Positions 6,614 through 36,059 of a stretch of DNA of 64,000 bases are shown here, piece by piece. Source of the stretch: Entoloma clypeatum. Lineage: Eukaryota; Basidiomycota; Agaricomycetes; Agaricales; Entolomataceae. The notes under the pieces were generated by a model, which worked only from the letters and a program-made list of their open reading frames with translations, searched no databases and was not told where the DNA came from. Each line of letters starts with the position of its first letter. The first letter of the stretch is position 1. The position numbers were made by a program, and so were the translations under genes. The stretch spans positions 3,162,001 through 3,226,000 of the forward strand of contig OY751496.1 in assembly GCA_963565915.1 (NCBI GenBank). Direction: 5' to 3'.

Positions 6614-6618
6614 GATAT

Positions 6619-8871: not shown

Positions 8872-8993
8872 AAGACACCCGTTGAAATCAGCAACAGCAT
8901 CGACCTCATCAGTCAAAAACCCACCGAGTTCTCCGCTCCGTCTTCAATATAGCTACTCCATTCTTCCTCTATCTCTCCAACATCCTCCGCACC

Positions 8994-9356: not shown

Positions 9357-9390
9357 CTCTGTGAGGACACAGAGCTTGAGGAGGGGAACA

Positions 9391-9778
9391 TGTTACGGAC
9401 TTACCGGTTTGTATGTTACGCACTTTTCCCTTGCATTGTACCTTCGTTATTTCTTTGACTCATCGGACCGCTTATTCATTTACCTTTACTCTACCATTCT
9501 CCTTTAGTATACTTTGCTCCCGCGCTGACTCGCACTCCGCAGTAGGGATTACTCAGTCCGCAGTTGTCTGACTCACTTTGCACTGCCTTTCCGCAGTTAC
9601 TGACTCATCCGCACTGCCTTCCGCAGCTACTGACTCACTCGCTACCGCTCGTAGCCAGTACTATATAAACCCCATGTACCATAGCTACATTCCTTAGATT
9701 TAGCAATCACTTTGCTCTTCGCCTTTCCACTTCCTGCATACTCTGCCCGAACCTTGGAATGGTTTGTTAAGCATAACA
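9391..9778 (+). repeat. Element B 3' LTR
   Basis: The 388-bp LTR starts TGTTACGGAC and ends GCATAACA. It contains actatataaac near 9660 as a TATA box. Between about 9530 and 9650 there are imperfect tandem copies of a roughly 32-bp unit built from ccgcag, actgactca and gcactgcctt. The next five bases, ccata, should be the target duplication, but the left end is outside the window. Confidence 0.8.
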
Positions 9779-15186: not shown

Positions 15187-15478
15187 TGTTGGAACAGCAT
15201 ACGATCACATCAACACTGGAGGTGATCACAGCGGATGTGTCGTCTTGCAGTCCTAGTATACTCTATGCTACGCGCTACAGATCGTGTATCTACGATAGAG
15301 AGAGATCCTACTACTAACCTTGAGAGGTGTTTGCAGGTGGGGGGTTACTTGGTAAGAGCGTTTTTATTGCACAGAGAATAAGGACAGTCTTATATACTAG
15401 TCTACTTATTTGTACACTATTTGTATGTCATGGGGTTGAGCACATGGCGCGTCTAATAGAAGTGGAACTCGTTCAACA
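15187..15478 (-). repeat. Copia element E 5' LTR with half-tRNA PBS
   Basis: The 292-bp LTR reads TGTTGAACGAGTTCC ... CTGTTCCAACA on the minus strand, with agtatataagac as TATA box. Immediately downstream on the minus strand (15186 and below) is ggttatgagccc, the initiator tRNA-Met half-tRNA primer site. The plus-strand flank catat (15479-15483) is the expected duplication. Confidence 0.85.
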
Positions 15479-15498
15479 CATATTTCAAATTCCAGTTA

Positions 15499-16716: not shown

Positions 16717-18628
16717 TAAGCAGTCCTCAGATTCCAGCATGTACTGGGGATTGTGTTGACTCCTTTCGTGCACCTTTGGAAACCCTCCGACTCAATGTGT
16801 CCACTCTCTCAAATCCAAACTCTCTATACATTGATTTGATATCTCCGACTTTTTCCGATTCTCTTCCGATAAAGTCTCTTATTGATTCTGGTTCTACACA
16901 TTGCTTCGCAGATACCAGATTTATTTCTTCTTTAAACTTATCTCCGACTCCAATTCCTTCACCTATGGTTTTGAAACCTTTTGACGGTTCTTCAAATACT
17001 TCTATTGATTTCAACCTCGTCATCCGATTCCACCCCGGCCGATTGGGAACTAAACCCGACTCTCTAACTAGACGTTGGGATGTCTACCCTAAAGGGGGAA
17101 ATAGCGACTACATCAACATCAATCCGACGAACCTCCGACCAGTCTTTTTGCAAGAACACTCTCCGCTTCAGTTCACGTGACTCAACTCCTTGAGCCCGTC
17201 CTCCATGCAACCATTATCATGGACACAGAAAAGCTTCACCACGACATACTCACAGCACTCCCTTCCGACACTCTTTATGACACTCTTTCTAAAGATCCTA
17301 AACCCTGCTGGTCTCTCAACCCCGATGGTTTCCTCTGACATGATGACTCCAAGTCCTACAGCACAAGCATGATCATATGCTTGCTGGACACCCAGGTCAG
17401 AACAAGACACTCAGTCTCATTCAGCACGATTACACCTGGCCCAGAATATGAGATTTCATCAAACACTATTGCAAGTCATGTACCACTTGCATGCGATCGA
17501 AGCCACAAAGACACAAGCCTTATGGCTTACTCAAACAACTCCCAATCCCCGAACGTCCTTGGAATTCCATATCCATGGATTTCATTGAGACTCTTCCGAC
17601 CTCCAACAACTTCAATGCCATCCTCGTTATTGTTGACCAATTCACAAAGCAAAGCATCTTCATTCTGACAACCATTAATTGCACCTCCAAAGATCTCGCT
17701 GTCCTTTTCGTACTACATGTCTTCTCTAAACATGGCATACCTGAACATGTCACCTCCGACCGCGGCCCCAAATTCATATCCCCATTCTTCCAATCCCTCG
17801 GAAAAGCTCTAAACATGACCCTTCACTTCACTTCTGGTTACCACCCTGAAGGTGACGGCCAAACCAAATGCACTAACCAGACACTCAAACAGTACTTGCG
17901 CATATTCTGCAACTACCAACAAGACAACTGGTCCGCTCTCCTTCCGATTGCAGAGTTCGCATACAACAATGCACCTAGTGCTACGACTGGCATCTCACCT
18001 TTCTTCACTAACAAGGGTTATCATCCAAACATCACTGTTCACCCAGAAATCCTTTGTGACCGACCTAGACGAGCTACACCAAGAGCTAAAATCCACCATC
18101 TCCGACGCGCAGCGACGTTACCAGATCCAAGCCGACATCCATTGGATGGTACCTCCGACATTCTCTGTCAGACAACAGGTTTTCGTCAAAGCAAAATTCT
18201 TCCACACTACATGTCCATCCAAGAAACTTTCAGAGAAGTTCTTAGGACCCTTCGAGATCATCACACAACCTGTAACACATTCCTTTACCTTCTGACTCCC
18301 CGACACATTCCGCGGTGTTCACCCCATCTACCATGTTTCTATGCTCGAACCCGCAACTCCGAACACCATTCCGAATCGGACCCAACCTCCACCTCCTCCG
18401 ATTGACATTGATGGAGAACTGGAATATGAAATCGCAGTAATCATTGACTCCAAGATCGACCGACGACGTAGCTGCAAGCTACTATACTTCATCCGTTGGT
18501 TAGGATATGAAGACACTGATGAAGAATTCTCTTGGCTACCAGCCAATGAATGGGAAAATGCCCCAGAACTCATCTCCGACTTTCATTCCGCTTATCCCGA
18601 CAAGCCTGGTCCACTTTTGTCGCTCTGA
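16715..18628 (+). pseudogene. Gypsy C1 pol, RT and RNase H deleted
   Basis: The pol frame starts in -1 relative to gag. The protease (KSLIDSGSTHCFADTRF) is followed by KPFDGSSNTSIDFNL and then at once by VIRFHPGRLGTKPDSLTRRW. In C2 and C3 that last sequence is the end of RNase H. All of RT and most of RNase H are gone, with the junction near 17015-17025. Integrase follows in shifted frames (ISMDFIETLPTSN, SDRGPKFISPFF). The catalytic segment reads DGQTKCTNQT, with the active-site Glu changed to Lys. The chromodomain is present at 18400-18600 (ELEYEIAVIIDSKIDRRRSC, LLYFIRWLGYEDTDEEFSW). Confidence 0.88.
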
Positions 18629-18655
18629 ATCAAAAGAACAAGTACTATTCATCAT

Positions 18656-19608
18656 CTACTCAGTATGTTGTTTCTTATTAGAAGGCCCCGCCTCCTTCTC
18701 CGACTCATCCAATATATCCATGTCGGACTGCTCCGGCATATCCAACCTCTTCCGATTCAACACATCTTGCTTGATCTTCTTCACCAGCCTCTGCTCCAGG
18801 CTCAACTCCTCTATCTCCTCATTCACATCCGACTTCCCCGATCCCTCTGACTCCGACTCCGATCCCTCCACTTCCTCTGGCACGTACGCAATGTTGACAG
18901 TTCCTTCAACTGCTGAGAGCAGTCTTCGGATCTGCCTCGTCTCCACCAAAATCTCCTTCAAGACGCTCAACAGCATCACCTCCGACTCCGACCCTCCGAC
19001 CTCTGTCGCTTTCCCTTTTCCCTTCACCTTCACCATGCGCTTCACCTCCAACTTCACCTCCAACTTCCCCTCCAACCCTCTGACCTCGCACTTCTTTCTG
19101 TCCTTAATGCAGCCTTTGCACGACGTTGTCTTACAAGTACTAAAAGACAATGGTTAGATCAAATCAACGATAAAAAGCAAAGAACGTACTTGTCGCGCTC
19201 GCACTCAACCTTCTTCATGATGCGCCTCTTACAGGCACCGACCCTGACTCCCGACCCCTCTCCGACTGTCGCGGTCACCTCATCCGCCTTCCTCTTTTTC
19301 TTCTTGTCCGCCGGGCTCCCCAACGCGCCTTGTTCGGTGGCCACAGCAACGGCCCTCTTCCTCACCGCCGTCTCCTCTGCCACCCATCTTTCCTCTGCTA
19401 CCCGCTTTTCCTCCGCTATCCGCTTTTCCTCCGCTATCCGCTTTTCCTCTGCTACCTGCTTCTCCTCCTCAGCCTTCTTGACAGCCTCCTCCGCCGCCGC
19501 TCGCTTCTTCTCCTTCACCTCTGCAAGCTTGCGTTGTAACTCTTCCATTTCATTGTCAAGTTCTTGGGTTGCTGGAATTGCCAACATCTTTTCGGAGCGG
19601 TTGACCAT
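18656..19608 (-). CDS. C1 antisense gene: coiled-coil, Zn2Cys6-like protein
   Basis: Spliced minus-strand gene, complement(join(18656..19139,19190..19608)). The intron is 50 nt, GTACGT ... TTTTAG with branch-like CTAAC. The start MVNRSEKMLAIPATQELDNE leads into a long Lys/Glu/Ala coiled coil with repeated EEKRIA units (about residues 15-75). Across the splice it reads CKRRIMKKVEC, a 10-residue spacer, then CKGCIKDRKKC: two C-x2-C-x6-C modules like a Zn2Cys6 cluster, though the second Cys of the first is Arg here. A basic linker (KVKGKGKATE), a short helix and a Ser/Glu-rich acidic tail follow. The gene ends 27 bp from the C1 pol stop and starts 121 bp inside the 3' LTR. Function is not established; a DNA-binding regulator is inferred. 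Confidence 0.7.
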
Positions 19609-19711
19609 GGTAGAAGAAAGGGAGATTAAGAACCATGTGAATGGTATTTTCAACCAACACACCACATGACGTGTTTCGCATGCACCGACCATCTAGGTCC
19701 TCATGGGTTTG

Positions 19712-19729
19712 GCCCTAAGGGGGAAATAC
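19712..19729 (+). promoter_or_regulatory. C1 polypurine tract
   Basis: The sequence cctaagggggaaatac lies immediately before the 3' LTR. The same block (cctaagRGGGRAATAC) stands before the 3' LTRs of C2 and C3. Confidence 0.75.
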
Positions 19730-20213
19730 TGTTGCATTCTGATCCTCCAATCCAACTCCGATCCAACTCCTCTGACATTTTGACTAATACTTGATTACAT
19801 TGTACTTACTGTTATGAACCTTCTCGCTACGTATGATACTTACATTACTTCTGTAGTTATGTTCACACCTCCAAAAGCCACTTACTATCCGACTCCAACA
19901 TTAGCCACTCGTTCTCCAACTCCAATGAATCCACACGTCCTCCAACATACTATAAAAACCTATGTATAATCTTGTATTAGCTTCAGTTTGAATATCAACT
20001 TTGATTCAACATCTTACCTCCCGTCCTCTTTCCAACTCTTAACTTGAGTCCGACCTCCGATCCTCCGAAATAAGGACACCGACATATTAGTGAGGGCGCA
20101 ACACACAAGTTGAAGCCAAGTCCTTGCCCCTACGTCGCACGCGCTCCGACCACCCTCCGACCCTCCAACGCGTCCGACGTAGCTCCGACATTTTTGTCGA
20201 TCAGTTCTTAACA
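19730..20213 (+). repeat. Gypsy C1 3' LTR
   Basis: The 484-bp LTR reads TGTTGCATTCTG ... TTCTTAACA. It has actataaaaacc near 19949 and a likely transcript start gtttgaatat at 19986. It carries the conserved block gcaacacacaagttgaagcc (20098-20117) shared with C2, C3 and the solo LTR. The partner 5' LTR lies beyond the nested insertions, outside the window. Confidence 0.8.
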
Positions 20214-20431
20214 CAGAATTCAGGTGCATGCTCGATAAATTACTTTCCCAGCTTGGGTCCAGACTAACGTAAGAATAGGGAAAGCTTGTTTTGTGTGCGA
20301 AGTGGCAGGGGAGACAGACTTTGTGAACATTGATGGACAAGTGGATTGTTCTCATTGTGGTCCATCCATAATATTGAACTGGAAAAACAGACAATGCATC
20401 CTGGAGCACATGGGTGCCCATATCCTCCACA
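20214..20431 (+). pseudogene. Host zinc-finger gene, fragment left of C2
   Basis: A piece of host gene is trapped between C1 and C2. It reads RIGKACFVCEVAGETDFVNI, then a CxxC (DCSHCG) and WKNRQCILEHMGAHILH up to the C2 insertion. The frame continues after C2 at 36060. From memory, the LEHMGAHILHD ... CGLC ... CPNL ... SPCSNVP pattern belongs to a family of cysteine-rich proteins that is multi-copy in mushroom genomes and has no assigned function. A stop near 20238 suggests an intron or decay upstream. The 5' part of the gene is lost behind C1. Confidence 0.7.
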
Positions 20432-20982
20432 TGTCATAATCATACGATTCACATCCGACTTATCTGATGACTCCGACGATTCATCCGCTCCGGCATCTGC
20501 TCCAACAACATTCTATTTATATTTGATTATACTTCTACTACGTAACATCTCAACCATACTTACAAGTAGACATATGTTGTTCACTTTTCATTTGCTACTC
20601 TCCGTACTCCGAATGTTCCAATGGTCAACTCCAATATCTGCACATCACTTATAGTAATGCTGATCATTCTAGTCTACTATAAATAGTGTACAAACCTGTC
20701 GTAGAACCTCAGTTCAAATATCATATGTTACACCTCATTCGCATCCGTCTCTACTTGCCTTTGAGCATTCTCTCCGTCACCTCCACTCATCCGCTCATCC
20801 ACTCATCCGCTCATCTGACATCCGCCAATCCGAAATCAAGGACCACGTCAAAGAGTGGGGCGCAACGCACAAGTTGAAGCCAGGTCCTTTCTGCCAACGT
20901 CGCACTTATCGCATCCACTCCTCCACTACTCCGCTCCGACTCGTCCGATGTTTTCCGATGTTGAGAAAAACGCTACGTGACA
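20432..20982 (+). repeat. C2 5' LTR
   Basis: A TATA box ctactataaatag lies near 20676-20688 and a likely transcript start gttcaaatat at 20712-20721. The conserved block around aagttgaagcc lies at 20862-20887. The copy has an extra tandem ctcatccg unit compared with the 3' LTR. Confidence 0.9.
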
Positions 20983-20994
20983 GTATATTTGAAC
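20983..20994 (+). promoter_or_regulatory. C2 primer-binding site, self-priming type
   Basis: Two bases (gt) are followed by atatttgaac at 20985-20994. This is the exact reverse complement of the inferred transcript start gttcaaatat (20712-20721), which lies about 30 bp after a TATA box. Confidence 0.72.
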
Positions 20995-21033
20995 TACCAC
21001 CATTCTTTGATTTACCCAACAACCTCTACCCAC

Positions 21034-22251
21034 ATGTCTCAAACCTGTAATACAGTTCGAACAACTAGGACTGCTCATGCAGCAGCAGAACGTTCATCAT
21101 CCACACCACGCTCTGCTTTTCTTCGAGGAACACACAATGTCTGACTCTCAGCTCCCACCACTTCCCACCAGTCCTCCACTAAACCCACCAACAGAACCCT
21201 CCGCACCTCTAAATTCTGGCTTATTCAGCAGACCTCTAGGAGGATCTCCTCCTCCTTCCGATGGTAGTTTACATGGAGATTTGGACGACTCTGATTCCAA
21301 TCCAGATCAGGAACCCAATCTAGCCGAAGCCATTCTGCTCATGACCAAAGAGTTGAAACGTCGTGACACAAAGAAGAAAAAGTCGTATGCCAACAAACCG
21401 GATACCTTCGACGGATCTGATCCACGCAAACTCTCCAAATTCATTTTACAATGCAAACTTTACTTCTCCGACAATGACAACTTTGACTCAGAACATTCCA
21501 AAGTCAACTTTGCCATGTCTTACTTCCGAGGCACAGCACTCAAATTTTTTGAACCCTTTATTCTTGACAATGATGAACCCAATTGGCGGGGTTCTTTCCC
21601 CAAGTTCATCCGACTTCTCCGCTCCGAGTTTGGTACCATTGACCCTCAGGGCGAAGCCAAAGAACAGTTGGACAACCTACGGATGAAGGAAAATCAAAAG
21701 ATATTGAAATACAACGTTGAATTCCAACGTCTTGCTACCAAGACTGACTGGGATGAAAACTCCCTCCGACACCCTACTACGTCGGACTTCCGGATCGGAT
21801 CAAGGACATCCGCTCCCAACAACCCAAGATCAAGTCTTTACCAGACCTACAATCCGCGGCTCATACTATTGATGCTCGCTACTGGGAATGTCAATGAGAG
21901 AAATCCAGAACTGATAAACCCACTCCCAAGTCCGACAAGAAACAATCTGCTCCGAACCAATCCACCGCACAAACATCATCAACCAAACCCTCTGCTCCCG
22001 CTACCGCTTCCGCTTCCACATCCGCTCCAAAATCTGACCTCTCCAGTAATTTAGGCAAAGACAACAAACTGATGTATCAAGAACGCAAACGTCGTTTCGA
22101 TAATAACCTTTGCTTATTCTGCGGTAGCGTTGGACACGCTGTCAAGGACTGTCCCAAGTCCACCTCCTCTGCTTCCAAGGCTAAAGGGAAGGCCGCCCAA
22201 GTCAGCACTCAAGCCAAGGAAAAAGGTAAGGAGATCAAGTCAAAAAGATAG
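21034..22251 (+). pseudogene. C2 gag
   Basis: C-family Gag broken by frameshifts near 21130 and 21775 and by a stop in the linker. The N-terminus reads MSQTCNTVRTTRTAHAAAE. The capsid region contains KPDTFDGSDPRKLSKFIL and MSYFRGTALKFFEPFIL, and the zinc knuckle is CLFCGSVGHAVKDC. The slip site before the stop is AAAAAGA (22242-22248), degraded from the A-run of C1 and C3. Confidence 0.85.
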
Positions 22252-25152
22252 GCAGTGGTCCTCATGAAGCACAGTCTGAGGACTGCGTTGACTCTCTCTG
22301 TGCCTCCGCTCCCATCCGACTTAACGTGTCCGCTCCCATCCGACTTAACGTGTCCGCTCCCATCCGACTTAACGTGTCCGCTCTCTCCGATCCGAACTCT
22401 TTACGTATCAATATATCATCCTCTTTTTTCTCTTCAGATTCTGTCCCAGCACTTATTGATTCAGGATCTACCCACTGTTTTATTGACAATAACTTTTCCT
22501 CCACTTATGATCTTCCGACCTCTGCTATTCCGCCTTTAGAACTAAAACTTTTCAATGGTTCTTCTAACGCGTTTATCACTCAAGTTGTAACAATACCTAT
22601 ATGTTTTCCTTCAGGTGAATCTTTTGAACAGGATTTTTATGTTACTCCGCTCGACTCCGCTTCTTCTGTGGTTCTTGGATACAACTGGCTCACCCGCCAC
22701 AATCCTATGATTGACTGGGTATTGGGCAGTATCACTTTCCATCCACAGATGCAAAAAGAGCCATTTCCAACATCGACGTCGACCTCCTCCCAAGGTAGGA
22801 CAGCTACGCTTCCTCCTCCGGAACCTCTGATCGTACCTCTGCAATCTGCTCCGCAGATTTCACTCATTAATGCAGCCGCATTTATGAGGGCATGCAAATT
22901 GCCTGGTACACAATCCTTTCGACTTCACCTTTCAACTCCCTCCGTTTCCGCTCACTCTGCATCCGCTTCCGACACCCCCGACTTGACAAATGTACCTGAG
23001 GAATACCACGACTATGCTGACATCTTCAGTAAAGGAAAAGCAGACACTCTTCCACCACACCGTCCCTACGACCTCAAGATCGAACTTGAAGAGGGTTCCA
23101 CTCCTCCGTTCAGTCCGATCTACTCCCTTTCACAAACCGAACTCAATGCCCTCCGTGAATTCATTGATGAACACCTCACCATTGGATTCATCTGACCCTC
23201 TTCCTCTCCGCACGGTGCTCCCATCCTTTTCGTTTGTAAAAAGGATGGCTCCCTTTGTCTTTGTGTTGATTTCTGTGGTCTTAACAAAATCTCAAAGAAG
23301 GACCGATATCCGCTTCCGCTCATATCCGACCTTCTCCAGACCGCTGGAAAAGCCAGTGTTTATACGGCTCTCAACCTCCGACACACCTATCACCTCATCC
23401 GCATAGCGGAAGGAGATGAATGGAAAACTGCCTTCCGCACACGCTATGGGTCTTTTGAATGGCTTGTCATGCCATTTGGACTCACCAACTCCCCAGCTGT
23501 TTTTCAACACTTCATGAATGACATCTTCCACGACCTGCTCGATAAGTATGTTACCATATATCTCGACAACATCCTCATCTACTCCGACTCTCCCTCTGAG
23601 CATCGAAAGCATGTCCGCGAAGTCCTCCAACGTCTCCGACAACATGGCTTATACACGCGCGCAGACAAATGCGAGTTTTCTATGGATACTGTTGAATACC
23701 TTGGCTTTATCCTCTCTCCGACAGGCCTCCGCATGTCGGATAAGAAAGTCAAAATTATTCAAGATTGGCCTGAACCAAGGAAGGTCAAAGATATTCAATC
23801 TTTCTTAGGTTTTGCCAATTTTTATTGTCCATTCATTCCTTACTACTCCAAAATCACTGTTCCGCTCACTCGACTCACCCGCAAAAACACACAATGGCAC
23901 TTCTCCAACTCCGCTTGCGAATCTTTCAAAACTTTGAAGAAAGCCTTTACCACAGCACCTATTCTTATGCATTGGATTCCCGACAGCCCTATTATCATCG
24001 AAACCGATGCCTCCGACTACGCTTTGGGTGCGATCCTCTCCATCTGCACCTCCGACAATGAAATCCATCCGGTCGCTTTCCACTCCCGCACCTTTACACC
24101 TCCCAAGTTTAACTATGACACCCACGACAAAGAACTATTAGCGATCCACAATGCATTCAAGGTTTGGCGTCACTACCTTGAAGGCTCCGCTGCTCTGATC
24201 GATGTCATAATGGACCACAAAAATCTTGAGTACTTTTCTACTACCAAGATTTTATCATGTTGACAAGCTCATTGGTCCGAATACCTCTGCCAGTTCAATC
24301 TCGTCATCCGCTTCTGCCCTGGCCGTTTAGGTACAAAGCCCAATCTTTTAAGTAGACGATGGGACATCTACCCTAAAGAGGGAAATAGCGACTATTCGTC
24401 CGCCAACCCAAGCAACTTCAAACCCATCTTCACACAAGAACAGCTCACCACTTCACTTCGCGCAACAGAGTTATATATGCCCATCCTCCATGCCACAATC
24501 ATCATGGATATGGATCAGCTCTGCTCCGACATCCTCTCTGCTCTTCTGACCGATCCCATTTACACCTCTTTCTGGATCGTGAATGAAGCAGGTTATCTAC
24601 TCCACAATGGACGTATCTATGTTCCCAACTCATCCGACCTCCGTCTCCGCATCCCCCGCATCCGACCTCTGTCTCCGCATCCTCTGCAATAAGCACGACC
24701 ATATCCTTGCTGGACACCCTGGTCAGAATAAGACTATTAGTCTTATCCAACGAGAATACACTTGGCCTGGAATGCGCGACTTCGTCAAAAAGTATTGCAA
24801 GTCATGTACCACTTGTATGCGCGCCAAACCCCAATGTCATAAACCCTACGGTCTGCTTAAACAACTCCCTATTCCTGAACATCCCTGGCATTCTATTTCC
24901 ATGGACTTCATTGAACCCCTTCCGACATCCACTGGCTCCGATGTGATTTTGGTCATTGTAGACCGCCTCACTAAACAAGGCATCTTCATTCCTACCACCA
25001 TTAATTGCACATCCGAAGACCTAGCAAACCTTTTCGTGCTTCACGTCTTTTCCAAGCATGGAGTTCCACAAAATGTCACATCCAATCGTGGACCTGAATT
25101 CGTCTCCTGCTTTTTCCGCTCTCTTGCAAAAGCCCTCAACATGAGACTTCAC
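22252..25152 (+). pseudogene. C2 pol, 5' part (protease, RT, RNase H, integrase start)
   Basis: The protease reads ALIDSGSTHCFIDNN. RT follows, with the catalytic box YLDNILIY, in which the second Asp is Asn through a G-to-A change at a CpG. RNase H reads IIETDASDYALGAILS and MDHKNLEYF. Stops stand at 23193-23195 and 24261-24263. The second is CGA to TGA by comparison with C3. Integrase begins (KYCKSCTTCMRAKP, ISMDFIEPLPTS) and is cut at 25152 by insertion of C3. Dead copy. Confidence 0.88.
22306..22380 (+). repeat. 24-bp tandem repeat, three copies, in C2
   Basis: The unit tccgctcccatccgacttaa plus cgtg is repeated three times just after the gag stop. In the pol frame it encodes an eight-residue repeat (SAPIRLNV). 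C1 and C3 have a single unit here. Confidence 0.85.
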
Positions 25153-25863
25153 TGTTATATCCGTCTCCGAACCTCCGATCCACTCCGATCGTCCTCCGAC
25201 ATTCCGGACATCCATTACCTCCGCGTCTCCGCACGTTGCCATCGTGCATTTCATATTCATAACTCCATGCCTTTATGCATTTCATATTCATATTCCCGTT
25301 TACTTATGCATCGCCTTTTTCACATGGTCCATTGACCGACATCTCCGATGTTCGTTACAGTCGCTGGCAACTTATGCCACAACTCCGGACCTACTCCGAC
25401 CATCTCCGTAAAGTAATCTCATTTAGGTATTTAAGCTCGTACCATACCTGTAGTTCCTTAGTTCGAATATCAACAAAGTTCACTCCTACTCCCCGTTCAT
25501 GCCAGAGATCCTCGCTGTGGTACAATACGCCAACGACATCCTCATCTACTGCTCTTCCTCCATTGTTACCCTTCGACAAGCTCAGTACTGTGTCCGAGTT
25601 ACAACTCCGACATCGTCTGACCATTTCCACGTCAATGTGTCTCTCACCAAGATCTTTCCGAGGACCTCCACACCTCCGACCTCTCCTCCGACCTCCTGAA
25701 ATTGGGACACCTTATCCAACAAACGGCGGCACAACACATACATTGAAGCCATGTCCCTCCCCTTCGTCGTTCCTCCGCATTTCTGGAGTTCTGCTCCAGT
25801 CTCAGTCCTACATCCGACCTCCGACGGACTCCGACGAAGCTCCGACTTTTCACCTACTTAACA
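25153..25863 (+). repeat. C3 5' LTR
   Basis: A TATA-like tatttaag lies at 25428-25435 and a likely transcript start gttcgaatat at 25461-25470. Downstream of the start it contains a 66-codon ORF (25499-25699) with an RT-like box; the 3' LTR has YADDILIYC and this copy YANDILIYC. Confidence 0.9.
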
Positions 25864-25875
25864 GTATATTCGAAC
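25864..25875 (+). promoter_or_regulatory. C3 primer-binding site, self-priming type
   Basis: After gt comes atattcgaac (25866-25875), the exact reverse complement of gttcgaatat at 25461-25470. C2 has A where C3 has G in the start, and the matching T for C in the PBS. Confidence 0.75.
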
Positions 25876-25903
25876 TCAAACCGTTTTTGGATTCCTGCTA
25901 GTC

Positions 25904-27480
25904 ATGGCACTCCGAAACACCAAGACAGCAAAAGCCGCAGAAGCTGGTACTTCTAGGCAACAGGTTCTACAAAATGTCGAACAACGTTTAACAGAACTAT
26001 CCCCCGTAACTCCCACTACCCCGACACCTCCGGGTTTTCAGCCCATCACACCTCCGCATAATATTCCGATCCCCACTTCCCCCATAGAATCCGCACCCCC
26101 GTCTCCTCAGAATATTTTCGGCCCACAAGCCCTTGCGGATGCAACCTCTTTTAAATTTAATTATAATTTATTTTTTAATATATAATTCTAATTTAAAATA
26201 ATTATAATTATAATTATACTATTACTATTTAAATATTTAATTTATAATTATTTTTAATAAATATTTTAATAAATATTTAAATAGATTAATTAATATTTTA
26301 GATGATGAAAATAAATATAATGATAAGTTTATAAAATTCATGATTGTATTTATATTAATATTATTAAAATTAATTAAAAACAAAAAACAAAAATAAATTA
26401 TATGGTATAGTTATATAATAAAATAGAAATTTTTATATTAAAAAATAATTAAAAACTACGTCTGTGACTTCTATTGAGTACGTAAAAAATAGCATTAATA
26501 TGTTATTTTAATAAATTTAAATCTAATAAAATTAATAATTATAGAAGTAAATTTAATTAATTTTCCTCTTAATGACCAATGAACTCAAACGCAGCAAAGG
26601 TCACAAGCATCATAAAAAGGCTAAGGATCTGGACACCTTCGACAGTTCTGATCCCCGGAAACTGAACCAGTTCATCCTCCAATGCACATTGTTCTTCCGC
26701 AACAACTCTGAGTATGACGATGACTCTGCCAAAATCACTCTCGCCATCTCTTTCCTCCGAGGCACAGCTCTCAATTATTTCGAGCATTTCATCATCGAAC
26801 CGGACCTGGACAACCCCCCGGACTGGTACAAAGATTGGTCCGCATTCCTCCGCACACTCCGCACAGAATTCAGGGTCATTGACCCCGTTGCGGATGCTGC
26901 CGACTCTCTGGACAATCTCAAAATGTGCAAAAATCAACATATTCTCAAGTATAATATCGAGTTCACACGCCTTGCTGCCAAAACGCACTGGGACAGCTCT
27001 GCCCTGCATCACCGGTACTACTCCAGGTTGGCAGAGCGGATTAAAGATGTCCTTGGGACTCAAGCAAAGCCAAGCACGTTACCAGCACTTAGGGAGCTAG
27101 CACAGACTATTGATGCTCGCCACTGGGAACGTCATCGCGAGAAGTCCCACTCCGACAAGTCCGCATCCAAATCCGACAAATCCAAAGCTAAAACCCCCTC
27201 CGCAAACTCCGATAAAAACTCCAAAGCCAAACCGCAGACACAGAACCAGGGCAAACAGTCGAAGCCTTCCTCCGCTCCCAAGTCCGACATCTCCCACAAA
27301 CTTGGAAAAGACGGAAAGCTAACTCCGGAGGAATGCAAACGCCATTTTGACAACAACCTCTGTATGTTTTGTGGCAAAGCTGGACACGTCGCGAAAGATT
27401 GCCTGAAGTCTTTGTCCTCCGCCTCTAAGGCTAAGGCGCGCGCTGCCCAAGCCAAGACCATGGACGAAACAAAAAATTAG
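25904..27480 (+). pseudogene. C3 gag with AT-rich insertion
   Basis: The N-terminal part starts MALRNTKTAKAAEAGTSRQQ and runs to GPQALADATS. About 415 bp of AT-rich DNA then replaces a short gag segment. Gag resumes at about 26566 as LLMTNELKRSKGHK and stays open through the capsid region (LDTFDSSDPRKLNQFILQ, ISFLRGTALNYFEHFI) and the zinc knuckle (CMFCGKAGHVAKDC) to TAG at 27478. The bases before the stop, AAAAAAT (27471-27477), form a classical X XXY YYZ -1 slip site in the correct frame, and pol is open in -1 from there. Confidence 0.88.
26150..26565. other. Extremely AT-rich insertion in C3 gag (mitochondrial-like)
   Basis: About 415 bp of almost pure A/T with a few short G/C words, quite unlike the GC-balanced flanks. 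It begins in a gag codon and ends at a gag codon with no duplication or inverted repeat that I can see. One frame carries a modest ORF (DDENKYNDKFIKFMIVFI ...) of mitochondrial type. A nuclear insertion of mitochondrial DNA is the best explanation, unproven without a match to the mitochondrial genome. Confidence 0.55.
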
Positions 27481-30400
27481 CGGGCAGTCCACAGGACTCT
27501 GTACGGCCTGAGGACTGCATTGAACCCATCCGTACTACCGCTCTACTCAACGCTTCCGCTCTTTCTGATCCCAATTCCCTCCGTGTCCAACTTACATCTC
27601 CGCTTATCTCCGATTCTTCTCCGATAGCCGCCCTTGTGGACTCCGGCTCTACTCATTGTTTTATTGACTCCCGTTATGCTTCATCCTATAAACTCCCTTT
27701 CACCTCCATACCTCCGATCGAACTTAAATTATTCGATGGAACGTCCAACTCCGTCATTACTCAGGCGGTTGATCTCCCTGTATACTTTTCCTCTGGTGAA
27801 TATATGGCCATTACAGCCTACGTGACTCCGCTCAATTCCTCCTGTTCTATGGTTCTTGGATACAACTGGCTCACCCGCTACAATCCTATGATTGACTGGG
27901 TGTTGGGCAGTATTACTTTCTGTCCACAGCTCTTGAAGGAGTCTCCAACCTTGACGTCTTCTGCCAGGTCAGCTCCGCTACCTCCGCAGACCTCTCCCGA
28001 TACTCTGACCTCCGACTCCGGCACACCCGCTGCTACTCCGGACGTTGTCCCGAATATTGCATTGATAAATGCAGCCGCATTTGTGCGTGCTTGCAAACTT
28101 CTGGGTGCCCAATCCTTCCGAATTCACCTCTCCGACCACACGATCTCCGCCCAATCCGTTTCTATGTCTGAGGAACCTCCGGACCTCTCCCATATCCCAG
28201 AGGAATATCATGATTTTGCCGATGTTTTTAGCAAGACAAAAGCAGACACCCTCGCTCCGCATCGTCCGTATGACCTCTGCATTGAGTTAGAAGATGGATC
28301 GACTCCCCCTATTGGCCCTATGTACTCCATTTTACAATCCGAACTATCTGCCCTGCGAAACTTCATAGACGAACATTTGGCCATTGGTTTCATTTGCCCC
28401 TCTCGCTCTCCGCACGGCGCTCTGGTCCTCTTTGTCCGAAAGAAGGACGGTTCCCTCTGCCTGTGCGTCAACTATCGGGGCCTGAACAAAGTTACCAAGA
28501 AGGATCAATACCCTCTTCCGCTCATCTCCGACCTCCTTTCCACTGCCGGAAAAGCACATGTTTATACCACTCTCAATCTCCGGCATGCATATCATCTTGT
28601 CCGCATTGCCAACGGAGATGAATGGAAAACCGCTTTCCGCACTCATTACAGATCGTTTGAATGGCTTGTTATGCCTTTTGGACTATCCAACGCCCCTGCT
28701 GCTTTTCAGCGATTTGTGAATGACATCTTCAGTGATCTCCTCAATGTTACAGTGGTGGTCTACCTCGACGACATTCTCATTTACTCCGACGACCCCGCCA
28801 AGCACCCCGACGATGTCAAGGAAGTTCTCCGACGTCTCCGCAAGAACGGACTTTACGTCCGCTCTGACAAGTGCGAATTTTCTGTCGACACAGTCGAATA
28901 TCTTGGTTTCATCCTTTCTCCCTCCGGTCTCCGCATGTCCGAAACCAAGGTAAAGACCATTCAAGAGTGGCCTGAACCTCGAAAATTGAAGGACGTACAG
29001 TCTTTCCTTGGATTCGCAAATTTCTATCAACGTTTCATCCACGGTTATTCGGACATCGTTGTTCCGCTTACCCGACTCACCCGGAAGGGTACTCCGTTCC
29101 ATTTCTCCGACTCCACATGGAGTGCGTTCAACGAGTTGAAGCTCGCGTTTACCAAAGCACCGGTCCTCACTCATTGGATTCCTGATCGACCTATTATCAT
29201 CGAGACGGACGCCTCCGACTACGCACTTGGTGCTATTTTGTCCATCCGGACCTCCGACGAGGAGATACACCCAGTAGCGTTCCACTCCCGCACCTTCACC
29301 GCCCCGGAACTCAACTACGACATGCACGACAAGGAGTTACTTGCTATCCATGAAGCATTCAAGGTATGGCGACATTACCTTGAAGGCTCCGCTGCTCCGA
29401 TCGACGTTGTCACGGACCACAAGAACCTGGAGTATTTCGCCACTACAAAGGTTCTCACCCGCCGACAGGCCCGGTGGTCCGAGTTCCTCTCTCAGTTCAA
29501 TCTCTTGATTCGCTTCCGCCCCGGACGTCTCAGTACCAAGCCGGACTCTTTGACTAGACGATGGGATGTCTATCCCAAAGAGGGGAATAGCGACTATGCA
29601 TTGGTAAACCCAAGCAACTTCCGACCAGTCTTTTCCCAAGAACAGCTGTCCGCATCTCTCCGAGCTACGGAGTTGTTCACCCCTGTTCTCCGCGCCACAG
29701 TCATAATGGACATTGAACAGTTGCACTCCGACATCCTCCGTTCACTCCCATCCGACCCAATCTATGCCGACCATCTCAAGGAGCCCAAACCGCACTGGTC
29801 CGTAGACTCCGACGGTTTCCTCCGTCATAGTGGTCGCATTTACGTCCCCGACTCTGATAACCTCCGGCTCTGCACCCTCCGCAACAAGCACGACCATATT
29901 CTCTCCGGACACCCCAGACAGAACAAGACAGTTAGTCTCATTCAATGAGATTATACTTGGCCTGGTGTTCGAGACTTTGTCAAAAAGTACTGCAAATCCT
30001 GCACCACTTGCATGCACTCTAAACCTCAATGCCACAAACCCTATGGTATGCTGAAGCAACTCCCAGTTCCGAACCTTCCGTGGAACTCCATATCCATGGA
30101 CTTCATCGAGACACTTCCGACCTCCGGCGGTTTTGACGCAATCCTTGTTATTGTTGACCGAATGACAAAACAAAGCATTTTTGTTCCAACTACGATCCAC
30201 TGCACCTCCGAAGATCTAGCCACCTTGTTCATCCTGCATGTGTTCTCCAAGCACGGAGTACCGGAACATGTCACCTCCGACTGAGGCCCAGAGTTTGTCT
30301 CCCGCTTTTTCCGCTCCCTCGGAAAAGCCCTCAACATGACTCTGCACTTCACCTCTGGCTACCATCCTGAAGGCGACGGTCAAACCGAACGTACCAACCA

Positions 30401-31175
30401 GACCTTGGAACAGTACCTCCGCATCTTCTGCAACTATCAGCAGGACAACTGGTCCGAGCTACTTCCGCTTGCGGAGTTCGCGTACAACAATGCTCCGAGT
30501 GCGACGACCGGGATCTCGCCCTTCTTCACCAATAAAGGTTATCATCCGAACCTCTCCGTCCATCCGGAGCGCGACCTCGCATCCGCCCGTGCCCGACAAT
30601 TCATCGTAGACCTGGATGAGCTTCACCAAGAACTCAAATCTACAATCCTAGAAGCTCAACGACGTTATCAAGGCCCCGCCGATCTCCGGCGTGCTCCACC
30701 CCCTCCGCTCAAAGTAGGACAGCAAGCTTTTGTGAAGGCTAAGTTTTTCCGCACTACATGACCCTCCAAAAAGCTGTCTGAAAAGTACCTTGGCCCCTTT
30801 GACATCCTTGCCAGGAATGGTACACACTCTTACACCCTCCAACTTCCGGACACCATACGCGGTGTTCACCCCGTTTTCCACATCTCCATGCTGGAGCCAT
30901 CTGTTCCGAACGACATTCCGAACCGGACAGTAACTCCGCCTCCTCCGATCGACGTTGAAGGAGAAGTGGAATATGAAATCGCCGAAATCCTTGACACCAA
31001 ACTGGATCGTCGGCGTTCTTGCAAACTGCTCTACCTAGTCCGTTGGCTAGGCTATGAAGGAACCAATGAGGAACAGTCCTGGCTACCCGCCACGGAACTC
31101 GAACATGCGACGGACTTAGTCGCGGATTTCCACTCCGCGTATCTGGAGAAACCAGGCCCCTTATCATGCCTATAG
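27481..31175 (+). pseudogene. C3 pol (near-complete, three CGA-to-TGA stops)
   Basis: The frame is full length in layout: protease (ALVDSGSTHCFIDSRY), RT with YLDDILIYSDD, RNase H (IIETDASDYALGAILS, TDHKNLEYF), integrase zinc finger and core (ISMDFIETLPTS, DGQTERTNQTLEQ), and chromodomain (EVEYEIAEILDTKLDRRRSC, LLYLVRWLGYEGTNEEQSW). It is stopped three times, at 29946-29948, 30282-30284 and 30759-30761. Each is a TGA where a relative has an arginine CGN codon at the aligned place. Otherwise the gene looks intact, so it decayed by point transitions after insertion. Confidence 0.92.
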
Positions 31176-31239
31176 AACTGCGCAAGACATTGATATTGCA
31201 AAATAAAATAATAATAATAAAAATTAGAGGGGGGAGGGG

Positions 31240-32703
31240 CTACTGGGTTTTGGCCTTCTTGGCCGGCAGATGGTCATCCTCCGACTCATCCTCCGTTTCT
31301 CCCTCCGCCTCCTTTTTCTCCGCTTGCAGCTCCGCAAGCTCCCCGTCCGCCAACCCCTCGTCCTCCCCCTCGTCTTCTTCCTCGTCCTCTTCCTCTCCTT
31401 CTTCCTCTTCTCCGTCCTCCAACTCCGACTCCGGAGCCGCCACCTCCAGCAGGAAATTCCGGTAGGCGAGGTGGTTGTTCATAATTTGAAGCTGCCGGAG
31501 CAGCGCCCAACCGACCCTCGCCGACTGCTCCTCCCTCTCTTCCAGAGCCTCCCAGAGCCCCTGGAGCTCCTCCGCAACCCCTGCGCCGCAGCAGTTTTTT
31601 GCCCCGCTTGGGCCCGCGACCTCCGCGACAGCCTCCTCCATCTTCCCCTGTTTCCGCTTTGCCCTCGTCTCGCCGGGTTTCAGGCAAACCTGTTTGCTGT
31701 CTTTACACCGCTGGCATGCGGTGCCCTTCCCCTGCCTAAGGAGACTGTCAGTAAGAAAAAGAAGATGAAGAAGCAGGTACTCACAATGCCCACTTGCACT
31801 CCACCTTCGCCTGTGCACAGGCCTGACACACCTCCCCCCGGACCTCCGATTCCTCTGCTCCGCTCTCCGCCCTCTGTTTCCCCGCCTTCTTCGCCCTCTT
31901 CCTCTCTGCCTCCGCCTCTGCCTTTGCCTCCGCCTCTGCCCTCTTCTTCGCCTCTGTGTCACGTAGCATGTTTTTCAATGTTGGAAAACGTCGGATGCAT
32001 CGGAGCAGTCGCAGCGGAGTAGCGGATGAACGGATGCGACAAGTCCGACGTCTTGCAGAAAGGACCTGGCTTCAACTTATGTGTTGTGCCCCATTCTTTG
32101 ACGTGGTCCTAGATTTCGGATTGGCAGATGTCGGAGGGTGAGAGGAGCGGATGTGCGGAGCGGATGTGCGGAGGTGGAGACGTGAGAAGGAGGATGAGGA
32201 TGAAAGGCAAAGGAATAGATTGGTGGAACGTATGGCAACGTATAGTGACGTATAATATTCGAACTGAGGAACTACGACAGAATTCATACTACTTATAGTA
32301 AACCAGAAGTGGGTCAGTAACTACTATAGGTAAGGTGTGGATGTCGGAGTTACTCATCGGAGCAATCGGAGTACGGAGAGGAGCAAATGCAAAATCAACA
32401 TCAAGATGTCTACTTGTCAGCATAATTAGAATGTTAACTAGTAGAGATGTCAATAAGTACTATTATGAAGATCATCGGATGTCGGACCGGATAAAACGTC
32501 GGAGTCATTGGATGTGTCGGATGTATGAATTGCATGGTTATGACACTCTGCCTCCCTCGCCCTCCTCTCGGCCTCCGCCTTTTTCCTAGCCTCCGCCTCC
32601 TCCTTCTCCTTGCGTACCTGCGCCAGACGGCGCAGGAGCTCCTCTTCGGAGTCGTCGAGGTTGGCGCTGGAGCGCGCGGGTTGTGTGTTTGAGTCTTGGG
32701 GCA
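31240..32703 (-). CDS. C3 antisense gene: coiled-coil Zn2Cys6-like protein, split by a solo LTR
   Basis: Minus-strand spliced gene starting at 32703 (MPQDSNTQPARSSANLDDSE). A coiled coil follows (EEELLRRLAQVRKEKEEAEA), interrupted at 32546 by a 589-bp solo LTR plus duplication, and resuming at 31951 as AKKRAEAEAKAEAEAERKRA. The intron is 31736..31784 (49 nt, GTGAGT ... CCTTAG). Across it the protein reads CQACAQAKVEC, ten residues, then CQRCKDSKQVC, a full C-x2-C-x6-C pair. A basic linker, a helical part (LLRQLQIMNNHLAYRNFLLE) and a tail of nearly pure Glu/Asp follow, ending PAKKAKTQ. The stop lies 65 bp from the sense pol stop. The role is inferred as a nuclear DNA-binding regulator. Confidence 0.72.
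31957..32545 (-). repeat. Solo LTR of the C2 family inside the C3 antisense gene
   Basis: The 589-bp LTR reads TGTCATAACC ... CTACGTGACA on the minus strand, with perfect ctctg duplications at 31952-31956 and 32546-32550. It carries the conserved aagttgaagccaggtcc block and a start-like gttcgaatat after actataag. It splits the antisense coiled-coil frame, which is continuous when the insertion is removed. Confidence 0.93.
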
Positions 32704-32823
32704 TTTTGGTGGTAACTGGAAGAAAACCCTTGGGCTGCTCATCTCCGTTAAATAACCGAGACCACATGACCTTGTTTATTTTCTCGCGGTCTTCCATGGG
32801 TGTCAGACCTAAGAGGGGAATAC

Positions 32824-33534
32824 TGTTATATCCGTCTCCGAACCTCCGATCCACTCCGATCGTCCTCCGACATTCCGGACATCCATTACCTCCGCGTCTC
32901 CGCACGTTGCCATCGTGCATTTCATATTCATAACTCCATGCCTTTATGCATTTCATATTCATATTCCCGTTTACTTATGCATCGCCTTTTTCACATGGTC
33001 CATTGACCGACATCTCCGATGTTCGTTACAGTCGCTGGCAACTTACGCCACAACTCCGGACCTACTCCGACCATCTCCGTAAAGTAATCTCATTTAGGTA
33101 TTTAAGCTCGTACCATACCTGTAGTTCCTTAGTTCGAATATCAACAAAGTTCACTCCTACTCCCCGTTCATGCCAGAGATCCTCGCTGTGGTACAATACG
33201 CCGACGACATCCTCATCTACTGCTCTTCCTCCATTGTTACCCTTCGACGAGCTCAGTACTGTGTCCGAGTTACAACTCCGACGTCGTCTGACCATTTCCA
33301 CGTCAACGTGTCTCTCACCGAGATCTTTCCGAGAACCTCCGCACCTCCGACCTCTCCTCCGACCTCCTGAAATTGGGACACCTTATCCAACAAACGGCGG
33401 CGCAACACATACATTGAAGCCACATCCCTCCCCTTCGTCGTTCCTCCGCATTTCCGGAGTTCTGCTCCGGTCTCAATCCTACATCCGACCTCCAATGGAC
33501 TCCGACAAAGCTCCGACTTTTCACCTACTCAACA
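32824..33534 (+). repeat. C3 3' LTR
   Basis: 711 bp, same length as the 5' copy. It is preceded by the conserved polypurine block cctaagaggggaatac and followed by the ttcac duplication. It keeps CpG at most sites where the 5' LTR has TpG or CpA, so it is the less decayed copy. Confidence 0.93.
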
Positions 33535-33539
33535 TTCAC

Positions 33540-34345
33540 TTCACTTCTGGATATCACCCTGAAGGCGATGGTCAAACCGAACGCACCAACCAAACACTCA
33601 AACAATACCTCTGCATCTTCTGCAACTACCAGCAAGACAACTGGTCCGCTTTGCTTCCGCTTGCGGAGTTCGCTTACAACAACACTCCGAGTGCCACTAC
33701 TGGTGTATCACCATTCTTTGCCAACAAAGGTTATCATCCCGACATTACACTCCATCCAGAACGTGATCTAGCATCCGATAAAGCTCAACAATACATCAAG
33801 AACTAAAGACTGCTGTCGCAGAGGCACAACAATGTTATCAAGGCCCTGCGGACATCCGATGTTCTCCGCCTCCTCCGCTCCGCATCGGACAAGAAGTCTT
33901 TGTTAAAGCCAAGTTCTTCCGCACCACACGACCCACCCAAAAGTTATCTGACAAATATGCTGGCCCATTTGAAATCATAGCCCAACCCGGCACGCACTCC
34001 TTTATACTATGTCTACCCGACACTATGCGTGCTATACACCCCGTCTTCCACATATCCATGCTCGAACCAGCAACTCCTAATGAGATTCCAAATCAGATAC
34101 AATCTCCTCCGCCTCCGCTCGAGATCAAAGGAGAAACCGAATACGAAATTGCAGAAATTGTCGACTCAAAGATTGATAAAAGACGACGATGCAAACTCCT
34201 TTACCTCGTCCGCTGGTTAGGTTATAAAGACACCAGTGAAGAGTTTTCTTGGTTACCCACATCCGAGCTTGAACACACAGCGGATACGGTAGCGGACTTC
34301 CACTCTGCTCAACCAACTAAGCCAGGTCCATTATCACGCTTGTAA
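33540..34345 (+). pseudogene. C2 pol, 3' part (integrase end and chromodomain)
   Basis: Continuation of the C2 integrase beyond C3: FTSGYHPEGDGQTERTNQ, AEFAYNNTPSATTGVSPFF. A frameshift near 33795 follows, then FRTTRPTQKLSDKYAGPFEI and a chromodomain (ETEYEIAEIVDSKIDKRRRC, LLYLVRWLGYKDTSEEFSW). The stop lies 150 bp before the end of the convergent antisense gene. Confidence 0.88.
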
Positions 34346-34495
34346 CAAGAAGAAAAGAAAATCTATCAATATTTTATACTAACAAAAAAACTACTTTCAC
34401 TGTTTTTTGTTAGATACCCCCTCTGTCTCCTTGTTCCACTCTGATCCGGATTCCACATCCACTTCCTCCATCTGCTTCCTCTTCTTCATTTCTTC

Positions 34496-35385
34496 TTATT
34501 TTTCTTCTTCTTCTTCTGCCTCCTTTGCCAACTCCTCCAATACCCTATCATACTCCTCTGCATCCTCGTCCTTGTCGGATCCCTCCTCCGAAGCCTCCAA
34601 ATCCTCCCTCCACATGATAACCATCAGAAGCTCCTTGATTTCCCGCAGTTCCTTCAACTCTGCCTTTATCAACCCCATCTCCCTTATCATGCTCCTAAGC
34701 CCTCTCACCACCTCCGTGCCTATGACCACCTCTGGCGGACCAAACCCCTCCGGCATGAACTCCGGCTCCTCTGACGCTGCGGCTATCCGTGATCCCTCCA
34801 CAGTCCCCTCTCCCTTGGACGATCCTGCCTTCACGTTCTTCATTGCACCACCTGCCACCTTAGCCTTTCCGACCCTCACCACCTTGGTCATCCTCCGCTT
34901 CACCTCCGACTCCACTTCTGCTCCCGTTCTGCAGCTTCGTTTTAAATGCTGGCACCGCCAGCACGACGAAGTGTTGTCATTCCTAAAGAACAAGTTAATA
35001 ACGAAGTGTATAAAGAAATAGAAAAGACTCACTCCGATGGCCAAAAACACAAGTCCCCCACTTTCAAGCAGGAGGTGCAATCCTCCTTCCCCTGCTCGTA
35101 ACTCGCAGGCATATCCTTGAAAACCCCCTGCAGCTGGACCTTCTTCACCTCCGCATTCGCCGCATCTGCATCTGCATCTGCAACTGGCTCCTTCGCCTTC
35201 GCTTTCTCTGCCTTCCTCTCTGCTAGTCTCTGCTCTTTCGCCGCCCTTTTCGCCTCCACGTGCTCTGCATCTTCCTTCGCGTGCTCCTCTGCCTCCTGCA
35301 GCTTCCTCTCCAACTCTTCGGTGACCTTCTTCTGGCGCTCCCTTTCAGCACGAAGAGCGGTGAGGGGTGAGTTCTCAGCGGACAT
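34496..35385 (-). CDS. C2 antisense gene: coiled-coil Zn2Cys6-like protein
   Basis: Complement(join(34496..34982,35033..35385)). The 50-nt intron runs GTGAGT ... TCTTTAG. The N-terminus MSAENSPLTALRAERERQKK leads into a coiled coil. After an Ala/Asp linker the cluster reads CTSCLKVGDLC, eleven residues across the splice, then CWRCQHLKRSC. A basic stretch (EVKRRMTKVVRVGKAK), a helix (LRSMIREMGLIKAELKELRE) and an acidic end (EEGSDKDEDAEEYD) follow. The frame is open although gag and pol of the same element are broken. The start lies 131 bp inside the 3' LTR. No family was recognised beyond the zinc-cluster spacing. Confidence 0.75.
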
Positions 35386-35516
35386 AGCGGATAGGCGACA
35401 GGATAGATGTTGTGGTTGGGTGACAAGAGAGAAAAATCACGCGCAAAGCTTTTCAACCAACGGTCACGTGGATTACCTCATCTGGGCCTCAGGGTTCGGC
35501 CCTAAGAGGGAAATAC

Positions 35517-36059
35517 TGTCATAACCATACGATTCACATCCGACTTATCCGACGTCTCTGATGATTCATCCGCTCTGGCATCCACTCCAACAACATTCTA
35601 TTTATATTTGATTATACTTCTACTACGTAACATCTCAACCATACTTACAAGTAGACATATGTTGTTCACTTTTCATTTGCTACTCTCCGTACTCCGAATG
35701 TTCCAATGGTCAACTCCAATATCTGCACATCACTTATAGTAATGCTGATCATTCTAGTCTACTATAAATAGTGTACAAACCTGTTGTAGAACCTCAGTTC
35801 AAATATCATATGTTACACCTCATTCGCATCCGTCTCTACTTGCCTTTGAGCATTCTCTCTGTCACCTCCACTCATCCGCTCATCCGCTCATCCGACATCT
35901 GCCAATCCAAAATCGAGGACCACGTCAAAGAGTGGGGCACAACACACAAGTTGAAGCCAGGTCCTTTCTGCCAATGTCGCACTTATCGCATCCGCTCCTC
36001 CGCTACTCTGCTCCAACTTGTCCGACGTTTTCCGACGTTGAGAAAAATGCTATGTGACA
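35517..36059 (+). repeat. C2 3' LTR
   Basis: 543 bp, preceded by cctaagagggaaatac. It differs from the 5' copy by scattered, mostly C/T and G/A changes and by loss of a short tandem ctcatccg unit. Confidence 0.9.

Follow-up and report, generated by a model that had tools for sequence, protein, structure and literature searches.

Antisense intron-containing genes for putative Zn2Cys6-like proteins in three TCCG-rich Ty3/gypsy families of Entoloma clypeatum

A 64,000-nucleotide stretch of the genome of the basidiomycete Entoloma clypeatum (GenBank assembly GCA_963565915.1, contig OY751496.1, positions 3,162,001 to 3,226,000 of the forward strand; hereafter the window, with coordinates counted from its first letter) contains representatives of three Ty3/gypsy retrotransposon families, designated C1, C2 and C3. 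On the strand opposite to gag-pol, each carries an additional gene between the pol stop codon and the 3' long terminal repeat (LTR). An initial annotation, made from the sequence alone, had described a two-exon gene in all three elements, which holds for C1 and C2; the window copy of C3 is not a plain two-exon gene because a solo LTR splits its exon 1. The parts of the three antisense genes are as follows.

18656..19139, minus strand: C1 exon 2, with Cys module 2, basic linker, helix, acidic tail and stop
19140..19189, minus strand: C1 intron, 50 nt, GT-AG, phase 2
19190..19608, minus strand: C1 exon 1, with the ATG at 19608, a charged helical N-terminal part and Cys module 1 (C-x2-R-x6-C in the window copy)
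31240..31735, minus strand: C3 exon 2
31736..31784, minus strand: C3 intron, 49 nt, GT-AG, phase 2
31785..31956, minus strand: remainder of C3 exon 1, with Cys module 1
32546..32703, minus strand: first part of C3 exon 1, with the ATG at 32703
34496..34982, minus strand: C2 exon 2, with a stop earlier than in most family members
34983..35032, minus strand: C2 intron, 50 nt, GT-AG, phase 2
35033..35385, minus strand: C2 exon 1

Read along the minus strand, the order in all three families is ATG, a charged helical stretch, Cys module 1, the phase-2 intron and Cys module 2, and the C-terminal half of the product contains a basic linker, a helix and an acidic tail before the stop (helices were assigned by eye). 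In the window copies, the ATGs lie 119-132 nt from the start of the LTR, and the genes stop directly beyond the opposite-strand pol ends. The window C2 protein is shortened by approximately 40 residues (279 versus typically 308-326 residues), and the window C1 protein has lost one of the six cysteines, all of which are kept in most other C1 copies.

The intron between the two Cys modules, initially reported as 49-50 nt long and in phase 2, was confirmed, and a GT...AG intron is present at the common position in all 74 copies read (21/21 for C1, 30/30 for C2 and 23/23 for C3, each window copy being counted once). Its length ranges from 46 to 64 nt with differences that do not come in threes, and the frame stays open. 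In the C3 copies L070, L071 and L078-L080, a poly-T tract extends the intron to as much as 64 nt, with intact splice sites. Analysis of 1.5-kb flanks at 40 loci, including the window's own three, revealed a pol tail on the opposite strand just beyond the antisense stop at 40/40 loci and an LTR immediately ahead of the antisense ATG at 39/40 loci, in agreement with the placement first proposed. A search of the genome (60.1 Mb in 20 contigs) yielded at least 140 matches to the antisense gene for C1, at least 148 for C2 and at least 171 for C3, where 131-150 candidates were scored and the matches are often exon-wise, so that copies are counted twice. Among 51 copies with a stop-free pol frame of 1228-1246 residues, which were drawn from 150 scored RVT_1 matches and paired with the antisense gene by reading the match lists, 47 have an antisense match approximately 2.8 kb beyond.

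The ratio of nonsynonymous to synonymous substitution rates (dN/dS) among copies had been set beforehand as a test of the gene. The sample was reduced from 22 entries through 14 intact copies to 13 distinct ones for C1, from 31 through 25 to 22 for C2, and from 24 to 12 for C3, the entry lists containing each window copy twice. Among distinct intact copies, the median pairwise dN/dS of the gene frame is 0.35 in C1, 0.32 in C2 and 0.31 in C3, with pairs that are not independent, versus 0.72-1.35 in the alternative frames. The exception is the mirror frame -2 (0.51, 0.41 and 0.38 for C1, C2 and C3), which has its third positions in common with the gene frame and carries 1.0-3.5 stops per sequence. 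The transversion-only ratio by pairs is 0.28 in C1, 0.34 in C3 and 2.09 in C2. When counted by site, the ratio is 0.42-0.47 in C1 and 0.35-0.54 in C3, and for C2 it is 0.51 for transitions and 1.46 for transversions (20 nonsynonymous and 3 synonymous changes). Over the zinc module, the ratio of nonsynonymous to synonymous differences (pN/pS) is 0.09 in C3, 0.23 in C1 and 0.53 in C2. The start of C3 at 32703, as initially annotated, is borne out by a pN/pS of 0.27 in the N-terminal part past this ATG versus 0.68 upstream of it. Among the distinct intact copies, the zinc-cluster cysteines are retained at 76/78 positions in C1, 132/132 in C2 and 71/72 in C3. The test thus gave values well under 1 for C1 and C3, where the sequence comparison makes purifying selection firm; selection in C2 is doubtful because of the value for the zinc module and the transversion ratios by pairs and by sites. 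The fixed position, the conserved intron and the selection in C1 and C3 give good support to the view that an antisense protein is encoded by the C1, C2 and C3 elements. The initial annotation had gone further and regarded the product as the elements' own regulator; the protein part of that claim stands, while the regulatory role is inferred.

Zn2Cys6 clusters (PF00172) follow the spacing pattern C-x2-C-x6-C-x(5-12)-C-x2-C-x(6-8)-C. The cysteine pattern in most intact members of all three families is C-x2-C-x6-C-x(8-11)-C-x2-C-x6-C, which fits, with one cysteine replaced in the window C1 copy. The two C-x2-C-x6-C modules initially reported for each element are seen in C2, C3 and most C1 copies, and not in module 1 of the window C1. 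Their spacing of 10-11 residues holds for the window copies (10 in C1, 11 in C2 and 10 in C3); 14 of the 22 C1 entries have a spacing of 8. No antisense protein reaches the PF00172 (Zn_clus) gathering score of 21 bits in Pfam; native scores range from 8.3 to 14.9 bits, the top one belonging to a C2 fragment. A second profile was built from zinc clusters of the host genome (20 clusters fetched, 12 distinct and complete, 11 used). Against this profile, the C3 copy L084 scores 25.0 bits, which was equalled by 0/1000 residue shuffles (top shuffle 24.1), and the window C3 copy scores 20.6 bits. C1 and C2 score 14.4 and 12.2 bits, values reached by 81/1000 and 91/1000 shuffles. The families align mutually over the zinc module (hhalign 96.9% for C1-C2, 69% for C1-C3 and 40% for C2-C3). 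The Zn2Cys6-like character proposed at the outset is thus supported by the spacing and, for C3, by the host-profile score, and it falls short for C1 and C2 against shuffles and for all three at the Pfam cut-off; on the cysteine spacing and the C3 score, the name "Zn2Cys6-like" appears fair.

Database searches placed the pol genes among many relatives, with 5927 of 7952 scored at E <= 1e-20; viral and bacterial/archaeal contigs yielded no pol relatives. Among 120 matches listed, those bearing fungal names belong to Leucocoprinus birnbaumii, at 65-67% identity, and Agaricus bisporus var. burnettii, at 62-64%. In the same database, which also contains these close pol relatives, the C2 antisense protein has no homologue elsewhere at E <= 0.01, and residues 165-300 of C3 have none at E <= 10. 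A search of the PDB gave three chance-level matches only, including Gal4 at E 4.4. A module-swapped zinc cluster was considered and rejected as a general claim. Swapped artificial peptides scored 18.3-24.5 bits against Pfam Zn_clus versus 8.3-14.9 for the native order, but 3/36 residue shuffles did equally well at E <= 0.002. Against the host clusters, the native order was better for C3 and slightly better for C2, and the swap helped C1 alone (24.3 versus 14.4 bits).

The second shared feature of the three families is a short motif with a TCCG core on the sense strand. A dinucleotide-controlled count over four pieces of the window C elements gives TCCGAC 84 times versus 7.6 expected and CTCCGA 83 times versus 8.5. 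For the reverse complement, TCGGA, counts in the window gag-pol stay close to expectation or fall short of it, and none occurs in the three LTRs; no motif excess was found in the 38-64 kb flank of the window. In the pol frames, codons were permuted among synonymous sites, with 300 permutations for the multi-locus set. In a C1 pol (L003), TCCGA occurs 52 times versus 15.5 +- 3.3 expected, across all three frames and at 52 of 73 protein-permitted places, versus 6 against an expected 3.7 on the opposite strand. Both TCCG and CTCCG exceed all 300 permutations in 8/8 C1, 2/2 C2 and 2/2 C3 pol pieces, by factors of 1.8-2.5 and 2.5-3.5, respectively, with the opposite strand at or below expectation in C1 and slightly above it in C2. 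The antisense coding sequences show a surplus of CGGAG over synonymous permutation in the eight copies tested (at most 7/300), and less so of TCGGA.

Sense TCCG density is 23.5-41.3 per kb, a range that covers LTR, pol and antisense gene. The nucleotides flanking the motif are family-specific, with LTR and pol in agreement: TCCGA accounts for 27 of 28 TCCG in two C1 LTRs, and C2 takes A or C at this position; C2 pol prefers TCCGCT, CTCCGC and TCCGAC, and C3 has CTCCG followed by A, C or G. Motif places are shared between families at 33/64, 44/66 and 46/79, about twice the prediction from nucleotide identity, and protein constraint explains part of this coincidence. Among 23 distinct C2 LTRs, CpG conservation is 0.88 within the motif, 0.78 at other CpG and 0.89 for non-CpG dinucleotides. 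The usual half-site of Zn2Cys6 proteins is a CGG triplet; on its antisense strand, the motif is TCGGAG. The motif-saturated set consists of window 15324-36059 and loci L001-L008 and L090-L093, in which coding DNA is included through synonymous choice.

Two further gypsy families, A and B, as well as other frames in the window, were compared. The TCCG density in the pol pieces of family B is 0-9.9 per kb, and CTCCG is not in excess at any of 8 loci (none below 29/300). No antisense open reading frame (ORF) of at least 80 codons with a cysteine module was found in the 777-2153 nt past the longest frame of family B, which is a weak test. In family A, the LTR begins 11 nt after the pol stop at 5/5 loci, leaving no room for an antisense gene, and the LTR contains 9 TCCG and 1 CGGA. 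There is no motif excess in the copia pol frame at 12213-13904 or in seven ORFs at 40-61 kb.

Taken together, these features could be accounted for as follows. The three chromoviral Ty3/gypsy families each bear an accessory gene on the antisense strand, interrupted by a spliceosomal intron of its own; presumably the intron is not lost because reverse transcription copies RNA of the opposite strand. A promoter within the 3' LTR or next to it would drive transcription of the gene in the direction of pol, and the product would be a Zn2Cys6-like protein of the nucleus, equipped with helices and an acidic tail. In the boldest step, this protein would bind in trans to the CGGA motif (TCCG on the sense strand) that fills the element DNA, and such self-recognition would shield its own family from silencing, as VANC does for VANDAL transposons of Arabidopsis. 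This reading, of a DNA-binding protein that works in trans, recognises the family encoding it and acts in VANC-like anti-silencing, is a tentative proposal, to which we give somewhat less than an even chance. The fuller version, in which the antisense zinc-cluster-like protein and the element-wide, family-specific TCCG motif jointly constitute a sequence-specific, in-trans anti-silencing system, is conceivable and should be held with more reserve. A trans-acting self-reader would explain the family-specific flanks, the dense and mostly one-way motif, and the few copies with intact pol that lack the gene. Its effect might also be activation or copy control instead of anti-silencing.

Several observations weigh against this proposal. 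Motif enrichment also occurs where the gene does not: family A shows an excess on both strands at 5/5 loci (TCCG 37-40 versus approximately 21, CGGA 33-34 versus approximately 16), which argues against a strict coupling of motif and gene, unless family A makes use of the same protein in trans or the reader is a host factor. There is a modest TCCG surplus at 2/8 family B loci (L123, 11 versus 5.7; L125, 19 versus 12.3) and in the short copia frame at 13971-14474 (5 versus 2.6). The strand bias is incomplete in C3, with an opposite-strand excess in pol (CGGA 29 versus 18.7, CGGAG 8 versus approximately 3) and a small CTCCG surplus on the strand that encodes the antisense protein; in general, a one-strand motif would fit RNA binding as well as DNA binding. 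VANC motifs, as described, are mainly non-coding, whereas those of the C families also lie in coding DNA. As to the gene itself, the remaining four of the 51 copies with intact pol (L086-L089) comprise three that keep pieces of it and one in which none was detected; to these are added the doubtful selection in C2 and the C1 and C2 scores within reach of shuffles.

A different explanation separates the motif from the antisense protein, which would then have another task. The motif would be an RNA signal (CUCCGA) recognised by Gag, a splicing suppressor or an export factor, or else the target of a host factor that also serves family A. The C1 and C2 motif is nearly confined to the strand of the genomic RNA, including across the antisense gene, as such a signal would be, and family A has the motif without the gene. 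We nevertheless consider this explanation rather unlikely, as the both-strand motif of family A does not suit RNA reading, the motif core is of the CGG half-site type of zinc-cluster proteins, and all three gene-bearing families are strongly motif-rich while family B is not.

The protein could also act locally, as the initial annotation suggested, and regulate copy number or the LTR promoter: it would bind sites in the LTR and activate or repress gag-pol, the pol motifs being by-products. Top motif density is indeed found in LTRs (up to 41 TCCG per kb), the combination of Zn2Cys6-like module, helices and acidic tail is activator-like, and a conserved block lies ahead of the ATG. Such a regulator would have no need of a motif saturation that exceeds synonymous expectation and runs on into pol and the antisense gene, and this explanation is judged unlikely; given the saturation, our guess is that self-recognition is better founded than LTR control alone. 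Since the pol and antisense genes are arranged tail to tail, with 27 nt between their stops in C1, their transcripts probably overlap, and the antisense transcript rather than the protein might matter, the element being tuned through double-stranded RNA. This is improbable, as the cysteines conserved in C1 and C3 and the constraint on their codons call for a protein. That the frames are open by chance or composition, for which low-complexity residues and the mirror-frame ratio of 0.38-0.51 could be cited, is hardly credible in view of the intron in 74/74 copies, the frame kept open over varied intron lengths and the dN/dS pattern, which speak strongly against it for C1 and C3.

If the antisense protein does read the motif, a VANC-like self/non-self system would exist in a retrotransposon, VANDAL elements being DNA transposons, and coding sequence would have been shaped by a DNA- or RNA-binding code. 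The function is directly testable because a recognisable type of domain, clear selection in two families, a candidate target motif and an intron indicative of a separate transcript converge in one many-copy genome.

Antisense genes between pol and the 3' LTR are known in plants as aORF-3R, with functions given as still unknown in a 2020 review (PMC7264820); examples are maize Grande gene23, rice RIRE2, Silene Retand, with a TRP28 domain, and Phaseolus PvRetro13 (PMC7264820, PMC11963269). The C-family gene is likewise an antisense frame between the pol stop and the 3' LTR that is conserved in most copies, and a nuclear or DNA-binding role is suspected for the plant genes as well. Unlike in the C families, no zinc-cluster module is mentioned in the passages on the plant genes, by which these were compared; the word "intron" is absent from both texts, and the Retand lineage is non-chromoviral. 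The gypsy element Boty of Botrytis cinerea contains an additional antisense gene, brtn (PMC7264820, PMC8365987, PMC4227169). Boty resembles the C families as a fungal gypsy element with a chromodomain pol and an extra antisense gene; it differs in its ascomycete host, and brtn was compared by description. The brtn gene was reportedly treated by Zhao et al. in 2011.

In Arabidopsis, VANC21 recognises a dense short motif in VANDAL21 and acts in anti-silencing (PMC5735166, PMC10398659). The C families share with VANC-type systems a protein encoded by the transposable element and a short, family-specific motif that is dense in one orientation in the element's own DNA, with a smaller other-strand excess in C3; the protein is a different one, and binding has been demonstrated for VANC and is a proposal for the C families. 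Gal4-type Zn2Cys6 proteins (PF00172) are similar in cysteine spacing, and the C3 cluster resembles host clusters; the C proteins differ in lying below the Pfam cut-off and in being encoded by retroelements. HBZ of human T-cell leukemia virus type 1 (HTLV-1), the analogy drawn in the initial annotation, is a bZIP protein. Like the C genes, its gene is antisense and sits at the 3' end of a retroelement (PMC11963269), in this case a retrovirus, and is likened here by gene place. A search of the open-access literature turned up neither an antisense gene of the zinc-cluster type nor TCCG saturation, and what appears to be new is the zinc-cluster-like module in an antisense gene and the saturation of the elements with TCCG (CTCCGA in C1).

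In the window, C3 is inserted in C2, and the solo LTR is inserted in exon 1 of the C3 antisense gene. C1 is represented by gag-pol, the antisense gene and the 3' LTR, and no paired 5' LTR was found for it within 12000-38000 of the window. The element parts are listed below.

15324..36059, plus strand: C1, C2 and C3 elements, with abundant TCCG motif on the sense strand (window pieces; other copies agree)
18296..18628, plus strand: C1 pol tail, chromodomain-like by eye, with 27 nt between the pol stop and the antisense stop
19731..20215, plus strand: C1 3' LTR, start by eye and end approximate; another copy matches 485 nt
20432-20982: C2 5' LTR, 93.6% identity to the 3' LTR
25151-25863: C3 5' LTR, 97.5% identity to the 3' LTR
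30762..31175, plus strand: C3 pol tail
31957..32545, minus strand: solo LTR in C3 exon 1, TGTCA...TGACA, with a CAGAG duplication at 32546-32550 and 31952-31956
32822..33534, plus strand: C3 3' LTR
33782..34345, plus strand: C2 pol tail, Tf2-1-like SH3 and chromodomain
35517..36059, plus strand: C2 3' LTR

A block ahead of the ATG, CA(C/T)GTG...GTTGGTTGAAAA, is a candidate antisense promoter on sequence grounds. It is present in the window C1, L057, L066 and four aligned C2 rows, is weaker in C3, and is not found in L042 or L053 of the same alignment. Its positions in the window are as follows.

19646..19670, minus strand: C1 block, CATGTG-like plus GTTGGTTGAAAA, between the polypurine tract and the ATG; candidate antisense promoter
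32748..32770, minus strand: C3 counterpart, weaker
35450..35470, minus strand: C2 counterpart, CACGTGACCGTTGGTTGAAAA

Some C1 antisense genes look mosaic by eye: in L057 compared with L066 and the window C1, exons 1 and 2 resemble different subfamilies, which suggests recombination during reverse transcription. Among the host's zinc clusters, two sets of repeated, like-scoring matches were noticed, one at C2:3074309, C12:78105, C12:198951 and C13:87257 and the other at C6:1096520, C6:1196315, C6:3327870 and C14:869565 (genome contigs, not element families). Five of these eight were read and are near-identical, and the two sets are perhaps subtelomeric or mobile gene families. Elsewhere in the window, 6615-9500 is a family B gypsy element with a sense ORF at approximately 8886-9354 downstream of pol and a low motif density. 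Window 514-6614 is a family A element, a young chromovirus with identical 435-nt LTRs and a pol frame of 1356 residues that abuts the LTR, and many near-identical copies of this family are present across the genome.
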